In this document: positions 128 through 46,085 of the stretch, in pieces | Layout: each line of letters starts with the position of its first letter | Position numbering within the stretch: position 1 is the first letter of the stretch | Source: Phycisphaerae bacterium | Lineage (GTDB): Bacteria; Planctomycetota; Phycisphaerae; Phycisphaerales; Phycisphaeraceae | NCBI GenBank assembly: GCA_030432595.1 | Contig: JAUIGU010000004.1 | Span: forward strand, 1-64,000 | Length of the DNA: 64,000 bases | Reading direction: 5' to 3' | Notes under the pieces: generated by a model | The model's input: the letters and a program-made list of their open reading frames with translations, nothing else | Told to the model about the DNA's origin: nothing | The model's database searches: none | Made by a program: the position numbers and the translations under genes

Positions 128-1768
128 TTATGCGGTTTGTCGCGAGGTTTCGGTGAGGTGGTAGCGGAATGCGTCGGCGAGGGCCTGCCAGCTTGCGTCG
201 ACGATGTTTTCGTTGACGCCGACGGTGGAGAATTTTTTCGGCGCGCTGCCGTCACTTCCGGGGGTGGGTTTGGTGGAGAACTCGATGACGACGCGGACCT
301 TCGCGGCGGACTCGGCGGTGGGGTTGACGACGCGGACGGCGTAGTCGGTGAGGTGGACGTCGTTGATCTGGGGGTAGTGGTCCTTGAGGCTTTTGCGCAG
401 CGCGGTGTCGAGGGCGTTGACCGGGCCGTCGCCGGCGCCGACGCGGTGCTCGTCCGTTTCGCTTCCGTTTTTGTTGACCTTCAGTTTGACGATGGCCTCG
501 GTGGAGGTGTCGTCGCCGTTTTTTCGGAGGATGATGCAGCGGTAGTGGTCGAGATCCCAGAAGCGGGTCTGGTGGCCGACGAGGTCGTGGGCGAGCAGTT
601 CGAGGGAGGCCTGGGCGTTTTCGAATTGGTAGCCGGCGTGCTCGAGGTCCTGGACCTTCATGAGCAGTTCGCGTTGTTTGGTTTTGTCGGCGTCGAGGCC
701 GAACTTCTGCCCGATGGTGAAGGCGATGTTGGATGCGCCCGAGAGTTCGGAGACGAGGACGCGGCGGTGGTTGCCGACGGAGCCGGGCTCGACGTGTTCG
801 TAGGAGTGGGCGATGCGTTGGACGGCGTGGACGTGCATGCCGCCTTTGTGCGTGAACGCGTTGGCGCCGAGGTAGGGCTGCCCGGGGTCGGGGGTGAGCT
901 GGGCGCGTTCGTAGACCTCGCGCGCGACGTCCGTCAGCTGCGGGAGCGCATCATCGAAGAGGCAGTCGTAGCCCATCTTGAGTTTGAGGTTGGCGGCGAC
1001 GGTGGTGAGGTCGACGTTGCCGCAGCGTTCCCCGATGCCGTTGATGGTGCCCTGGACCTGGACGGCGCCGGCCTCGACGGCGGCGAGCGCGTTGGCAACG
1101 GCGAGGCCGGCGTCGTTGTGGGGGTGGATGGCGAGGCGATTGCCGATTGGTGATTGATGATTGCCGATTTTTTCGGAGACTTCGTGGATTGCCTGGGTGA
1201 TCCAGCCCGGCAGGGAGCCGCCGTTGGTGTCGCAGAGGACCAGCCGGGTCGCGCCGCCGTCGAGCGCGGCCTGCAATGTCTGGAGCGCGTAGTCGGGGTT
1301 GGCTTTGTAGCCGTCGAAGAAGTGTTCGGCATCGTAGAACACGTCTTCCACATGGTCGGCCGCGGCACAGAAGCGGACGGAGTCGCGGATCATGGCGAGG
1401 TTTTCTTCGCGGGAGACGCGGAGGACTTCATCGACGTGGAGGTCCCAGGTCTTGCCGACGATGGTGATGACGGGCGCGCCCGAGTTGACGAGCGCGTTCA
1501 TCCCTTCGTCTTCTTCCGGGGCGATGGCTTTGCGGCGGGTCATGCCGAAGGCGCAGACCTTGGTGTGCTTAAGGTCGAGGTCGCGGGCCTGCTCGAAGTA
1601 GGCGACGTCCTTGGGGTTGGACAGCGGGTAGCCGCCCTCGACGTAGTCGACGCCGAGCGCGTCGAGGCGCTGGGTGATGGCGAGCTTGTCGGTGAGGGTG
1701 AGGGAGACGCCGGCGCCCTGGGTGCCGTCGCGGAGGGTGGTGTCGTAGATCTCGATGCGGCGTTTCAT
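128..1768 (-). CDS. cimA: (R)-citramalate synthase
   Basis: Condenses pyruvate and acetyl-CoA to citramalate, the first step of the threonine-independent route to isoleucine (citramalate synthase branch of the isopropylmalate/homocitrate synthase family). The 546-residue protein starts with the TIM-barrel signature [16 protein letters not shown]. It carries the metal-binding HPHNDAG motif about residue 215, NGIGERCGN about residue 243 and [10 protein letters not shown] about residue 310. The C-terminal 130 residues form the LeuA-type regulatory domain, where isoleucine feedback would act. The ATG at 1768 precedes the barrel signature directly. No Shine-Dalgarno is visible; the upstream transcript is C-rich. 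The leader carries an Ile-codon attenuator (1907-2029), which supports the isoleucine role. A short low-complexity insert (GNHQSPIGN) sits just before HPHND and is encoded by two 10-bp direct repeats 21 nt apart (1139-1148, 1160-1169). Confidence 0.95.
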
Positions 1769-1906: not shown

Positions 1907-1930
1907 AAAAAAACCCTGCTTGGGGCAGGG
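1907..1930 (-). terminator. Attenuator terminator in the cimA leader
   Basis: Read on the minus strand: CCCTGC (1930-1925), loop CCCAA, GCAGGG (1919-1914), then seven T (1913-1907). It is a compact intrinsic terminator pointing toward cimA and placed 139 nt before its start. No minus-strand protein gene lies upstream that it could end, apart from the 21-codon leader peptide. Confidence 0.85.
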
Positions 1931-1963
1931 CGACTCGGGATCGTGGGGTGATGGATCGCGGCC

Positions 1964-2029
1964 CTACCGGTGCGGGAGGTTGGAAATAATCGCGATGCGG
2001 ATAATGGGCTGGGACATGCGTGGTCTCAT
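1964..2029 (-). CDS. cimA leader peptide (Ile-rich)
   Basis: This 21-residue peptide reads MRPRMSQPIIRIAIISNLPHR in two pieces: MRPRMSQP, then IIRIAIISNLPHR. Five of residues 9-15 are isoleucine (ATT, ATC, ATC, ATT, ATT), which is far above chance in a GC-rich genome. A second in-frame ATG at 2017 would give 17 residues. The stop codon lies inside the antiterminator arm, 33 nt before the terminator stem. The peptide probably has no function beyond sensing Ile-tRNA supply. The exact start is uncertain because no clear Shine-Dalgarno is seen. Confidence 0.8.
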   Translation of the reverse strand: MRPRMSQPIIRIAIISNLPHR

Positions 2030-2145
2030 CAGAGCATCAGCATAGCGGGGGACCGGGCGGCGGGGCAAGGGGTTCTCGCAGGGAGTGCCCATGCTCTTGG
2101 GGTTTGGTGAGTTTGCGGGGGGCGTCATGGCCGGCCGGGTCGATC

Positions 2146-2160: not shown

Positions 2161-3414
2161 ATGCCTGAGACGGTGAAGTCAAGTGGACCCGGATCGGTTG
2201 CGGGGGCGGCCGGTCGGCCGGCGGTGCGGTACCGGCGGTGGCTGCACGGGCTGGCGATGGCGCTGGTGGCGGCGACTTTCATTCTGGTGGCGATCGGCGG
2301 GTCGGTGACGAGTTATGACGCGGGGATGGCGGTGCCGGACGGGTTTACAACGTTCGGGTATTGGTCGCTGACCGCGCCGCTGGAGGTGTGGTGGCACGAT
2401 TTGGGCACGCGGCTGGAGCACTCGCACCGGCTGAAGGGGTATGTGGTCGGGTGGCTGACGATCGGCGTGCTGGTCGGGGTGTTGGCGACGCAGCGGCGGC
2501 GGCGATGGGTGGTGGGGCTGGCGGTGGGGTTGTTGGTGTTTGTGGTGTTGCAAGGCGTGCTGGGGATTCTGCGGGTGGACGAGGTGTCGCTGTGGCTGGC
2601 GGGGGTGCACGGCGTGACGGGGCAGATCTTCTTGGGGCTGACGGTGGTGATGGCGGCGGCGGTGGGGCGGGTGTGGTTGAAACGGAGTTGGCCTGAAAAC
2701 CATTGTGTCGAGTGCGGCTACAACCTTCGGGGAAACGTCTCGGGTGCGTGTCCTGAGTGCGGTCGTGCCGTTGGAGCGGACGATTGGCCTAAGGCGCAAA
2801 AGGTGCCGAAGCTCGCGTGGGTGTGGTTGGCGTTGCTGTTGGTTCAGTTGTCGTTGGGGTCGGCGGTACGGCACGGGCAGGCGGCGTTGGCGATCCCGGA
2901 CTGGCCGATGCATTACGGGTCGGTGCTGCCGCCGATGAGTGAGGAAGCAGTGGGCGCGGCGGTGGCCGCACTTCCGGAAGCCACCCAGGCGAAGCAGGAC
3001 GCGGCGATGCTCGGCGAGGCGGTGACGGCGTGGCGGGTGCATCTGCACTTCACGCACCGGGTGATGGCGTACGCGGTGACGGTGTTTGGGATCGTGTTTC
3101 TGTCGTGGGTATGGAAGCGCTGGCGGGATACGGTGGACGGAGGGTTGGTGAAACGGGTGGTGCTTTTAGTCGGTGGGTTATTGGCGTTGCAGGTCACACT
3201 CGGGGTGTACACCGTCATCAGTGGCGTACACCCGACGATGGCGACGCTGCACCAGACGGTCGGGGCGGCGCTGCTGGCGGCGTCGGTGTGGTTGGCGGTG
3301 CGGATGAAGTTGGTGGGTGTGGCGCGTGAAGCGACCGAGGTCGAAGGCGACGCCGCGGTTGGGCGGCCCACGGTCTCAGACCGTGGGCTTCAAGGAGCGG
3401 GGGTGACGGCTTGA
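2161..3414 (+). CDS. ctaA: Heme A synthase (COX15/CtaA) with an inserted zinc ribbon
   Basis: Oxidises the C8 methyl of heme O to give heme A for cytochrome oxidase; an integral membrane enzyme. The 417-residue protein has about eight membrane segments in two homologous halves, with the expected heme-ligand histidines: EHSHR, GVHGVTGQ, HFTHR and TLHQTVGA. The ATG at 2161 is chosen over longer in-frame options because it follows the -10 box directly and begins just before the first helix. Oddity: between the two halves lies a four-cysteine module (C182, C185, C197, C200; CxxCGYNLRG...CPECG), typical of planctomycete zinc ribbons and not part of ordinary COX15. Its role is unknown. The gene overlaps ctaB by 4 nt. 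The last codons contain a 23-bp hairpin repeat (3366-3388). Confidence 0.92.
   Translation: MPETVKSSGPGSVAGAAGRPAVRYRRWLHGLAMALVAATFILVAIGGSVTSYDAGMAVPDGFTTFGYWSLTAPLEVWWHDLGTRLEHSHRLKGYVVGWLTIGVLVGVLATQRRRRWVVGLAVGLLVFVVLQGVLGILRVDEVSLWLAGVHGVTGQIFLGLTVVMAAAVGRVWLKRSWPENHCVECGYNLRGNVSGACPECGRAVGADDWPKAQKVPKLAWVWLALLLVQLSLGSAVRHGQAALAIPDWPMHYGSVLPPMSEEAVGAAVAALPEATQAKQDAAMLGEAVTAWRVHLHFTHRVMAYAVTVFGIVFLSWVWKRWRDTVDGGLVKRVVLLVGGLLALQVTLGVYTVISGVHPTMATLHQTVGAALLAASVWLAVRMKLVGVAREATEVEGDAAVGRPTVSDRGLQGAGVTA
3366..3388. repeat. GCCCACGG-type hairpin repeat, copy 2 (inside ctaA)
   Basis: GCCCACGGTCT and AGACCGTGGGC form an 11-bp perfect stem around one central C. The repeat lies within the last 16 codons of ctaA, so it has been taken into the reading frame. 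TTCAAGG follows, as in copy 1. Confidence 0.65.
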
Positions 3415-30500: not shown

Positions 30501-31774
30501 GCGGCAACGTCACCGTCAACAACACCGGCACCCTCGCGGGCACCGGCACGTTCAACGACAACGTCACCGTCCAGTCCGGCGGCACGCTGAAGGTCGGCGG
30601 CGACGTGTTGCCCACCATCGATGTCATGACCTACCTCGACGCCACCGACGGCGCCGGCGGCAACACCACCCTGTCCGCGGGCGGCACATTCACGCCGACC
30701 ACCAACCCCGACTGGCAGATCCGCACCGTGTTCGGCAACGGCGGCGAGATCTACCAGGGCGGCAGCGAGGACCCCGCGTCGGCCCCGGAACTGCGGACCA
30801 CGATCACCGGCCTGACCCCCGGTCAGGACTACGAGGTGTTCGCCAACTTCTGGGCCGCGACCGGCTCGGGCTGGCGCATCCTCGCCGGCGACACTTCCGG
30901 CAGCCTCACGCTGTACGACGCCCCGTTCACCGACGTGGCGGGGGCCACCGACGGCATCGACCTTGCCGCCGTGCCCTACACCAACGATCCGCTCATCACC
31001 GAGGGCAACCGCACCATGTACGGCGCCAGCCTCGGCACGCTGACCGCCAACGGCAGCGGTGAGATCGCCGTCTTCATCGACGACACGGGCACCGACGACG
31101 GCGACGACCGCACGTGGTACGACGGCGTCAGTTACAGCAGCGGCGCGACCGCTTTCACCAGCGCCAGCATGACGATCGAGGGCGACCTGACCCTCAACGC
31201 CGGCTCCACCCTCAGCCTCGACATCGCCAGCCCCACCGTGCTGGACTCCCTGATCGTCGGCGGCACGCTCAACGCCGGCGGCACCCTCGATGTCAACCTC
31301 GCGGCCGGCTCGACCCTGGAGGCCGGGGACATGTTTGACCTGTTGGACTTCGGTTCGGCCACCGGCAGCTTCGCGTTCGACCTGCCGACATTGGCCGCGG
31401 GCCTGACCTGGGACACGTCGAGCATCCTGATCGACGGCATCCTGAGCGTCCTCGGACCCGCCGGCATCGAGGGCGACTACAACAACTCCGGCCAGGTCGA
31501 GCAGGGCGACCTGGACTTCGTCCTCCAGAACTGGGGCGACACCGACATCTCCGACGTCACCGGCTGGGTCAACTTTGTCGGCCTGCCCGGCGGCAACATC
31601 GGCGGCCAGGTCGAACAGACCGAACTCGACCTCGTGCTCACCAACTGGGGCGACACCACCGCGCCGGACTTCGCCGGCTCGTCGGTCCCGGAACCCACGA
31701 CCCTGGCGATCCTGGGCCTGGGCGGCGTCGGGTTCTTCAGCCGCCGCCGCAATCGTGCGACCGCATCAGCGTGA
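27533..31774 (+). CDS. Giant autotransporter-repeat PEP-CTERM protein with RTWYDG module and dockerin-like tail
   Basis: A 1,413-residue exported protein. A signal peptide (about 1-35; AALLASLALPAVSHA) is followed by a long beta-helical region of strand repeats (about 40-1010; for example NWIGGVAPAAGADVLFGNV, GAGTLTINTQTD, NNTGTLAGTGTFNDNVTV). At about 1020-1205 is the module with RTMYGASLGTLTANG and DDRTWYDGVSYSSG, shared with the neighbour at 24333. A linker, two dockerin-like segments (DYNNSGQVEQGDLDFVLQNWG; GQVEQTELDLVLTNWG) and a clean sorting signal (SVPEPTTLAILGLGGVGFFS, then RRRNR) end the protein. No catalytic domain is recognised, so it probably acts as an adhesin or scaffold at the surface. 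ATG 27533 follows TGGAGGACCCTC; longer in-frame starts lie inside the preceding gene. Confidence 0.86.
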   Translation: MKPCVTRRSRRYVPSTAALLASLALPAVSHAATVTLSDSDALGTSSFNTGLNWSDGLAPSAGNDYVTGDFRVRTPGDGNSHTFAGDSLTVNNTNGYSQGLMYKGTGDTGVITIPNLIFDGGQISHANGLGDFFVLDGAINVLSTSEFYAKQGSIEVLADISGVGDLTILASDVPGDTETRVVTLQGDNSGFTGNIDVAGVMILGGAGSLDFAIGADTVVDHMLLGTGTAILDGSFDFDLTGASTTNGDSWQIVDVATQTYGATFSVNGFSQVGSVWTDGGYTYDTTTGTLSVGGVSFIEWGVDADGTYGTGSNWIGGVAPAAGADVLFGNVITDNRTVTLNANIAPGSITFSNTGDGDYFLVPQAAQTITLTNATVSTTGRHWIRAGVNTSGGTLTLNGSGELVLDATNSLNSAVVVDSTNLAVVNNDALNGSGAVTVQNGGQLRFVGPNNTFFTDQGSAGYGTGTLARAVALDETSSLSVTDGADLTLNTPTGTGTVNADGGTLRVGTGNASSNVEFVALGESGVIVVDGADDLGNGGTVDNGTRALGNENAGRIELTNNVTIANELLTLGARELSAIEAVHLSSAGNNTWNGNILGTVGGTRYNLESTSGTLTLGGTISAPDTAVRNFYFSGDGNFVVNNLTDAGVDPNGDFSLPSTQNNISVFKQGAGTLTINTQTDLNDDYWFGTTTVEAGSLVVNSDGSENGELRSTVTVNAGATFDVSDFGTYNLIPIAPYSVGIGGGGTVVANTLGVFESSTVTPGDSVGTLDVTGNVLLRYFDTGAATVPDTGSFNFELGNSGTVVGGAENDLIDISGTLTTTIEAAATGSQFVFNITPAEGALDASNNYTLITAGTRTGNATAANFTANIVDAQGNPLVSRQTASVVLVGNTVQLDVNGNPLNLTWTGGANDNWDVNTSNNWSPGAQTFFQTDSVFFNATGGGGDVNVAENVAPAAMTVAAASYTFSGSDINAGSITVANNGTATFNNTVGGNVTVNNTGTLAGTGTFNDNVTVQSGGTLKVGGDVLPTIDVMTYLDATDGAGGNTTLSAGGTFTPTTNPDWQIRTVFGNGGEIYQGGSEDPASAPELRTTITGLTPGQDYEVFANFWAATGSGWRILAGDTSGSLTLYDAPFTDVAGATDGIDLAAVPYTNDPLITEGNRTMYGASLGTLTANGSGEIAVFIDDTGTDDGDDRTWYDGVSYSSGATAFTSASMTIEGDLTLNAGSTLSLDIASPTVLDSLIVGGTLNAGGTLDVNLAAGSTLEAGDMFDLLDFGSATGSFAFDLPTLAAGLTWDTSSILIDGILSVLGPAGIEGDYNNSGQVEQGDLDFVLQNWGDTDISDVTGWVNFVGLPGGNIGGQVEQTELDLVLTNWGDTTAPDFAGSSVPEPTTLAILGLGGVGFFSRRRNRATASA

Positions 31775-45892: not shown

Positions 45893-45898
45893 GCCCCT
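45893..45898 (+). promoter_or_regulatory. -10 element of the thiC transcript
   Basis: TATACT lies just before the riboswitch. Transcription would begin at about 45905, the base of the aptamer's first helix. Confidence 0.65.
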
Positions 45899-45902
45899 GT
45901 TC

Positions 45903-46001
45903 GCTCGGGGCGCCCCGGAAGTGTTCACCGCTTCGCGAGGGCTGAGACGCACCCGCCGAACCTGATCCGGTTCACACCGGCGTAGGGAACGCGAACCCCG
46001 G
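45903..46001 (+). promoter_or_regulatory. TPP riboswitch (THI element)
   Basis: The conserved aptamer core is present: GGGCTGAGACGCACCC (about 45940-45955), GAACCTGATCCGGTTC (about 45958-45973), then CCGGCGTAGGGAACGC. The flanks CTCGGGG and ACCCCGG close helix P1. It senses thiamine pyrophosphate and lowers thiC expression. The 85 nt between aptamer and thiC hold no U-run terminator, so control is more likely by masking the AAGGAG Shine-Dalgarno (46074-46079). Confidence 0.93.
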
Positions 46002-46085
46002 CCCCGGAAGTGCTTCGTCCGAAGTGGTTCCGTCGGGCGCTCGGGTTCCGACTTGCGCCGCGTTTCAGCAAGCAAGGAGCACCCG

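Follow-up and report, generated by a model that had tools for sequence, protein, structure and literature searches.

A candidate isoleucine-responsive leader-peptide attenuator ahead of citramalate synthase in Phycisphaerae

The cimA locus and its leader

The window, by which we mean the whole 64,000-nucleotide stretch that was analyzed, contains on its minus strand a gene for citramalate synthase, cimA, whose start codon is at 1768. A short Ile-rich open reading frame, with its stop codon 195 nt upstream of cimA, and an intrinsic terminator precede the gene. The features of the locus are as follows.

128..1768, minus strand: cimA, citramalate synthase, the putatively regulated gene (TIGR00977, 625.1 bits, cut-off 450)
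1907..1931, minus strand: intrinsic terminator, with a hairpin from 1931 to 1913 and a T tract at 1913-1907
1925..1931, minus strand: terminator 5' arm GCCCTGC, common to the antiterminator and the terminator
1961..1968, minus strand: candidate antiterminator arm GGUAGGGC, with the stop codon inside it, an 8-bp pairing with the terminator 5' arm, and covariation
1964..2029, minus strand: leader ORF of 21 codons, MRPRMSQPIIRIAIISNLPHR, with ATG at 2029-2027 and stop TAG at 1966-1964
1985..2005, minus strand: candidate regulatory codons IIRIAII (3 ATT and 2 ATC), the last Ile 6 codons before the stop
2039..2044, minus strand: candidate -10 box TATGCT, 4 of 6 matches, ending 9 nt before the leader ATG
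2063..2068, minus strand: candidate -35 box TTGCCC, with an 18-nt spacer to the -10 box
2161..3411, plus strand: heme A synthase-like gene, divergent, context only (NF045570, E=1.4e-9, 37.5 bits, far under the cut-off of 550)

Several of these elements had been proposed in a preliminary description of the locus, and the TIGR00977 score bears out its choice of citramalate synthase as the attached gene. A 21-codon peptide with IIRIAII, five Ile in seven codons, at 2005-1985 is exact on direct reading of the sequence. The terminator that it placed ahead of cimA, CCCTGC-CCCAA-GCAGGG followed by seven T residues, is likewise there: GCCCTGC-CCCAA-GCAGGG occupies 1931-1914 and the T residues 1913-1907. 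A terminator scan lists the same hairpin, although as evidence in its own right the scan is weak, with 2 sites in the region versus 0.7 expected. The description had also paired GUAGGGC, across the peptide stop, with GCCCUGC over 7 bp. This pairing is present but its length needs correcting, since in the window copy the arm GGTAGGGC (1968-1961) and GCCCTGCC form an 8-bp helix that includes one U-G pair.

Because the heme A synthase-like gene lies on the plus strand, no read-in from the upstream neighbor into the leader is expected, and the end of this gene does not account for the terminator. The leader reading frame is open upstream as far as a TTG at 2182, and ATG 2029 was therefore chosen as the start on the basis of promoter position and relatives. 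When 318 segments of 400 bases per strand were scanned for ten amino acids, the sole Ile match on either strand of the 64-kb window (at least four Ile in nine codons together with a terminator) was the cimA leader. The same scan gave a Val match at 30525-30738 on the minus strand, a weak Val-containing ORF with a terminator-like match that is probably due to chance. Two further structures were seen in the window: a perfect inverted repeat without a T tract, CCCACGCTG-TCC-CAGCGTGGG, at 1801-1821 between the terminator and cimA, and a TPP riboswitch (RF00059, 58.3 bits) at 45896-46006.

Conservation and covariation in relatives

A search at E 1e-100 found cimA in 46 of 51 genomes of the window's family. 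By hand reading, 36 of these 46 loci combine an Ile-rich leader with an arm at or near its stop codon (mostly GGTAGGG) and a terminator, with 18 to 213 nt between terminator and cimA across the family. An automatic detector, which calls for a terminator, a stop codon 5-90 nt ahead of it, and at least four Ile in nine codons, was positive at 32 of the 46 loci and in 0 of 1,840 shuffles; at three Ile per nine codons it was positive at 35, a number that includes L036 by way of the wrong ORF. L036 is the Ile-poorest of the 36 hand-read leaders, L025 was missed because it has three Ile per nine codons, and in L058 the detector found no terminator behind the Ile-rich ORF that is present. These failings of the detector are why the hand count is given beside the automatic one. 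The element is absent from the remaining 10 of the 46 family loci (L011, L017, L027, L032, L040, L042, L043, L044, L045, and L047).

The same detector was applied beyond the family. In two other families of the same order, 7 of 9 loci were positive (of the nine, eight are from f6 and one, L055, is from f5) versus 0 of 360 shuffles. Among named loci, divided by their record titles and with L061-L063 omitted as copies of counted loci, those titled as planctomycetes gave 7 of 21 (1/840 shuffles), rising to 11 of 21 at three Ile (5/840), while those from other phyla or unlabelled, one of which (L139) has no upstream sequence, gave 1 of 56 versus 1 of 2,240 shuffles. At this rate, the single match in the latter group, in a deltaproteobacterial MAG (L125), was set aside as probable chance. 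Of the omitted copies, L062 is from the cultured strain ZRK32 and carries the cimA element. A survey of the phylum found a cimA match in 88 of 195 genomes (E 1e-100), and at the 80 survey loci outside the two main families, three of which have short upstream stretches (238, 39, and 8 nt), the detector was positive at 19 versus 0 of 1,560 shuffles. By family these were f26 (15/20), f54 (2/5), f57 (1/1), and f7 (1/1), with none in f38 (0/18) or in the remaining families (0/35). Since the leader peptides of f26 match those of Gimesia loci L066 and L070, f26 is probably the family of Gimesia. The named loci partly overlap the survey (L084 and L226 are an identical leader), so the two counts are kept separate. 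As detected by these searches, the element is confined to Phycisphaerales and some Planctomycetia lineages and is not phylum-wide.

The composition of the leaders points to selection on what they encode. In 41 Phycisphaerales leaders (L054 and L059, with uncertain starts, were dropped) Ile makes up 27.2% of residues in the coding frame versus 1.7% and 1.0% in the other two, which contain 22 and 20 stops; the Ile content of the cimA protein itself is 4.2%. In the 36 family leaders used for codon usage, ATT accounts for 111 of 171 Ile codons, compared with 80 of 881 in the cimA genes, and the ATT fraction is greater in the leader than in cimA in 36 of 36 cases. Both Ile codon spellings interchange across the alignment while the Ile residue stays, and thus it seems to be the peptide code, not the DNA, that is under selection. 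All 43 Phycisphaerales leaders have their last Ile 3-7 codons ahead of the stop, a spacing at which a stalled ribosome would leave the arm free. Little of the leaders can be aligned apart from the Ile residues and the stop-codon arm.

Promoter position was compared in the Phycisphaerales leaders, on which this argument rests, since the choice of start is too uncertain in the other planctomycete leaders. Of 41 leaders (L054 and L059 again dropped), 33 have a -10 hexamer that matches at five or more of its six positions and whose end is 6-12 nt upstream of the start codon, with 0.95 expected within 5-12 nt; at a distance of 13-54 nt, 3 such hexamers were observed versus 5.36 expected. A TTGC-type -35 box was picked in 26 of 43 leaders by a scoring that favoured TTGC. 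The exceptions to the -10 placement are the window copy (L001; 4 of 6 at 9 nt), L036 (4 of 6 at 6 nt), and L035 (none), and the gap is larger, 19-29 nt, in L003, L016, L030, L041, and L046. All five of the latter carry a Shine-Dalgarno-like sequence, which elsewhere in Phycisphaerales leaders is found only in L053. A -10 box so close to the start codon in 33 of 41 leaders suggests that the leader RNA is probably leaderless. The simplest reading is that it is leaderless in most species and Shine-Dalgarno-led where the promoter is farther off. For the window, we predict a transcription start within a few nucleotides of the leader ATG. This position comes from the position-specific comparison with relatives, the window copy being a weak match, and a consensus scan of 1500-2600 found no sigma-70 site at all, not even the window -10 box. 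A start downstream of 1907 was the concern raised in the preliminary description; the likely promoter, as placed from sequence, instead lies just upstream of the leader ATG.

The arm is expected to pair with the terminator 5' strand in place of the hairpin. The longest ungapped antiterminator helix is 5-11 bp in 54 leaders. In 41 Phycisphaerales leaders (near-identical L014 and L018 dropped), arm and terminator strand from the same genome pair at -20.20 kcal/mol versus -17.67 for different genomes (permutation p 5e-5), and in 11 leaders outside Phycisphaerales at -18.20 versus -13.81 (p 1.5e-4). The permutation p values ignore descent, against which a set with one leader per genus (p 5e-5, n=29) and control region pairs serve as guards; three such control pairs gave p 0.17, 0.96, and 0.45, none significant, and two of them with one leader per genus gave 0.19 and 0.24. 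In the alignment of 43 leaders, 85.2% of antiterminator cells are paired versus 26-48% when shifted by one to three columns, and 99.7% of 301 terminator cells are paired. Nine antiterminator cells are changed on both sides, a number reached by 4 of 500 column shuffles, and 1 of 500 attains the covariation score. The shuffles match other measures in part, with 39 of 500 reaching the number of pairs with two-sided changes and 152 of 500 the number of pair types.

Some changes run through all three strands. An arm A to G change (A-U to G-C) accompanies a terminator U-A to C-G change in 2 sequences, and an antiterminator U-G to U-A change accompanies a terminator G-C to A-U change in 2 others. Two leaders, L031 and L037, have their stop codon a few bases farther upstream, and their arm, GGCAGGG, is a full Watson-Crick match, which indicates that the arm is preserved as a pairing element independent of the stop codon. 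Gimesia-type leaders have a different terminator (CCTCAGG...) together with a matching arm, CTTGAGG or CTGAGG. The mutually exclusive pairing of GGUAGGGC with GCCCUGCC and of the terminator hairpin, as first proposed from the window copy, is thus upheld by helix search, permutation, and alignment alike. Relatives keep both features on which that proposal turned: the Ile run is present at 36 of the 46 hand-read loci, and the stop-codon arm covaries with the terminator.

The RNA element can also be sought without reference to codons. A pattern of stop-arm, spacer, and terminator gave 34 matches in 30 of the 51 family genomes, versus 0 matches for the reversed pattern in the same 51. By position, 24 of these are cimA leaders, 9 precede ileS, and 1 precedes aspS. 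Each of the nine ileS leaders is rich in Ile, and each of the genes scores above the TIGR00392 cut-off. The ileS leader of the window's own genome, MPTPRLIIAGTIIPSPHTR, lies at G000:C30:59182-59237 (L287, L289) and has a TATGAT -10 box 9 nt ahead of its ATG. Viewed from the gene side, at least three Ile in nine codons with a terminator were found at 13 of 30 ileS loci examined, out of 49 match rows, versus 3 of 1,200 shuffles. Structural gene and leader codons concern the same amino acid in both cases, cimA by TIGR00977 and the own-genome ileS by TIGR00392. One RNA element before cimA and, in nine genomes including the window's own, before ileS suggests an isoleucine regulon. The aspS match (L293, G030:C4) lies before an aspartate-tRNA ligase gene that is cut off by the contig end, and the leader there has three Asn, no Ile, and no Asp; as a guess, an Asn leader might suit an AspRS that serves tRNA-Asn as well.

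These observations bear on whether the Ile-rich ORF belongs to cimA at all. It could be a small independent transcript, encoding a small RNA or a functional small protein in which the Ile run has its place, that ends at the terminator, with cimA read from its own promoter downstream. The distance of up to 213 nt between terminator and cimA leaves room for such a second promoter in some genomes, and the blank promoter scan carries no weight either way. A functional product of this kind is hard to reconcile with leaders that hardly align beyond the Ile residues and the stop-codon arm, with an arm that pairs and covaries with the terminator strand in place of its hairpin, and with the return of the RNA pattern at ileS behind different Ile-rich peptides. 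We therefore regard an independent transcript as improbable.

Other biosynthetic genes were considered alongside. The window's own genome has a 2-isopropylmalate synthase gene above the NF002086 and TIGR00973 cut-offs, and its Leu leader ends in LSKALLGLLLISSAG with the stop context CTAGGGC. A Leu leader (at least four Leu in nine codons) with a terminator is found at 17 of 30 family leuA loci (L002 and L141-L169, out of 45 match rows, two with less than 45 nt upstream) versus 3 of 600 shuffles, and several Leu leaders end in a CCGGATAGGG arm ahead of a ACCCTGTCCGG-type terminator. A Val-rich ORF ending in VQVVGAVVVVVI precedes the own-genome ilvB (L170, G000:C46 upstream of 40904). At least five Val or Ile in ten codons were found at 15 of 31 ilvB loci (L170 and L255-L284) versus 27 of 620 shuffles; these leaders often end in VVVS or VVVI and mostly lie at 190-390 nt from ilvB, and a stop context with a possible GCGG-N4-CCCGC hairpin, TGAGCGGNNGACCCGC, is common to many of them. 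Searched as a pattern in the 51 genomes, TGAGCGGNNGACCCGC occurs 45 times, in 38 of them, versus 2 for the control, with proximity to ilvB examined for part of the matches; a second match in the window's genome is at G000:C69:154353-154368, on the window's contig and outside the window. No terminator was detected behind the ilvB Val leaders that share this context, so they were not counted as attenuators of the same type and probably use another mechanism. At hisG of the same genome, no leader with a terminator was found within 500 nt upstream.

Folding, mechanism, and alternatives

Equilibrium folds with an assumed ribosome footprint were calculated for each leader. In the window copy, the probability of the terminator is 0.18 for the free RNA, 0.06 with the ribosome at the middle Ile, and 0.20 at the last Ile. 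It rises to 0.96 with the ribosome at the stop, so that this copy is predicted to switch between the stalled and the terminating state when folded with and without a ribosome mask, the test that the preliminary description had suggested. A terminator probability above 0.5 is seen in 25 of 43 Phycisphaerales leaders when free, 13 mid-run, 18 at the last Ile, and 42 at the stop. In the other planctomycete leaders the corresponding numbers are 9, 9, 10, and 11 of 11, and the equilibrium model therefore does not discriminate there. Accordingly, a ribosome stalled mid-run brings the predicted terminator to 0.5 or less for the window copy and for 30 of 43 Phycisphaerales leaders, compared with 2 of the 11 others. 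Cotranscriptional folding would favor the antiterminator, which forms earlier. The own-genome ileS leader folds into the antiterminator when stalled, and at the stop a long-range fold replaces the terminator, for which reason we do not claim the mask model for ileS.

A third helix (1:2), in which the leader start would pair with the segment that follows the stop, was matched better within than between genomes in 41 leaders (p 5e-5), with p 0.051 in 11 other leaders, and it is also supported by permutation with one leader per genus. Against shuffles of each single leader its support is modest, with 13 of 52 leaders reaching 5 of 100 or better. For the window copy, folding yields a weak helix and predicts that the antiterminator is favored in the free RNA (terminator 0.18), which suggests that the 1:2 protector is weak there.

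The post-stop segment also raises the question of whether something other than a ribosome acts on this RNA. GGCGATC, which recurs by eye in 10 of the 43 aligned leaders, could be a binding site for a regulatory protein or for a tRNA in the manner of a T-box, with antitermination brought about by that binding and the peptide incidental. Its pairing with the leader start explains the segment at least in part. The Ile frame is retained, as are the host-rare ATT codons. No Rfam family, T-box included, was found at the window leader at gathering threshold, where a search up to E=5 returned only an unrelated snoRNA at E=3.5, nor at the leaders in the loci of eight relatives, in which only two tRNA genes match. 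A T-box riboswitch at the cimA leader was rejected for want of a covariance model match, and control by protein or tRNA binding in general appears very improbable. That the leader ORF merely tunes cimA initiation by translational coupling, along the lines of the re-initiation at leader genes near structural genes proposed in the portion of PMC4833913 that we draw on, is hardly credible, since re-initiation across the 195 nt between stop and cimA would be unlikely and 36 of the 46 family loci have a terminator between the leader and cimA.

We conclude that the cimA leader is very probably a ribosome-mediated transcription attenuator through which charged tRNA-Ile controls citramalate synthase. 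The logic of a classical amino-acid attenuator, which the preliminary description read from the window copy, is supported by the Ile frame, the arm pairing, the placement of the promoter, and the mask fold of the window. In the mechanism we propose, the transcript would begin at the leader AUG or no more than a few bases away from it, so that a ribosome would probably initiate on a leaderless RNA. With ample Ile-tRNA it would pass the Ile codons and reach the UAG inside the arm, covering the arm, so that the CCCUGC/GCAGGG hairpin could form and polymerase would halt before cimA. When Ile-tRNA is scarce the ribosome would stall on the Ile codons, 3-7 codons upstream of the stop, and the free arm would pair with the 5' strand of the terminator, allowing polymerase to continue into cimA. 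In many relatives the 1:2 helix may hold the arm when no ribosome is present, giving termination by default.

Relation to known systems and implications

Classical leader-peptide attenuators are those of the trp, his, leu, ilv, thr, and pheA operons of Proteobacteria, and codons rare in the host are used in some leu leaders. The cimA element resembles them in its short ORF rich in codons for the end product, its predicted alternative 1:2, 2:3, and 3:4 helices, and an intrinsic terminator before the gene. It differs in phylum, in the genes concerned (cimA and ileS), in the use of Ile alone rather than mixed branched-chain codons, in the position of the cimA leader stop codon inside the antiterminator arm, and in its probably leaderless start. 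In Firmicutes, ileS is under T-box control. The signal, tRNA-Ile charging, and the target ileS would be the same in both systems, whereas a T-box binds tRNA directly and here a ribosome on the leader ORF is the proposed sensor; the Rfam run on this point covers the cimA leaders.

In Actinobacteria, ileS is placed under T-box control in the section of PMC1262725 consulted, which also predicts candidate attenuators at ilvB, leuS, trp, and leuA by comparison. Like those candidates, ours come from comparative prediction in a phylum little studied for mechanism, and relative to what that section presents they add covariation between arm and terminator, one RNA element at two Ile genes, and the mask-fold test. 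For Streptomyces lividans, the relevant part of PMC8079986 describes leader peptides (leuL, trpL, and ilvL) that are transcribed leaderless ahead of biosynthetic and aminoacyl-tRNA synthetase genes. The likeness extends to the leader peptides, which here are probably leaderless, to the two kinds of genes, and to some terminators, and is drawn without comparison of RNA sequence; the phylum is another, and cimA and ileS are not among the eight listed there. A Leu-rich attenuator peptide of Staphylococcus is mentioned in the excerpt of PMC5794164.

Within the open-access literature, to which our search was directed (subscription journals mostly fall outside this scope), we found no described case of leader-peptide attenuation in Planctomycetota, as the preliminary description had supposed, and nothing on transcription attenuation by a leader peptide at citramalate synthase. 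The only match that joins leader genes and Planctomycetes is PMC4833913, which in its matching passages concerns re-initiation distances. In the matched text, Planctomycetes with leaderless starts leads to Sinorhizobium, citramalate synthase with leader peptide to a methanogen, and Phycisphaer with leader peptide to TatC, and the main text of the premature-terminator survey PMC2965389 does not contain planctomyc, Pirellula, or isoleucine. New within this literature are thus the phylum, the pairing of cimA with ileS, the probable leaderless start, and the stop codon inside the antiterminator arm, while the underlying principle is that of classical attenuation and is already known.

Leader-peptide attenuation would thereby be extended to a phylum for which the open-access search found no described case, with one RNA switch linking the citramalate route of isoleucine synthesis to tRNA-Ile charging. 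The likely leaderless start would make ribosome entry part of the timing of the switch, and reporter tests should be straightforward with an element of such short length and sharp definition. The coupling of transcription and translation in planctomycetes is a long-standing question, and a spatial separation of the two has reportedly been proposed for Planctomycetota. An attenuator of this kind needs a ribosome close behind RNA polymerase, and would thus provide genomic evidence of coupling and a simple genetic test for it in planctomycetes. We think it likely that Planctomycetota lineages run leader-peptide control of branched-chain amino acid genes, with Ile at cimA and ileS, Leu at leuA, and Val at ilvB, the Ile leaders being mostly leaderless, and that this is evidence, at the level of the genome, for coupling between transcription and translation in these organisms.
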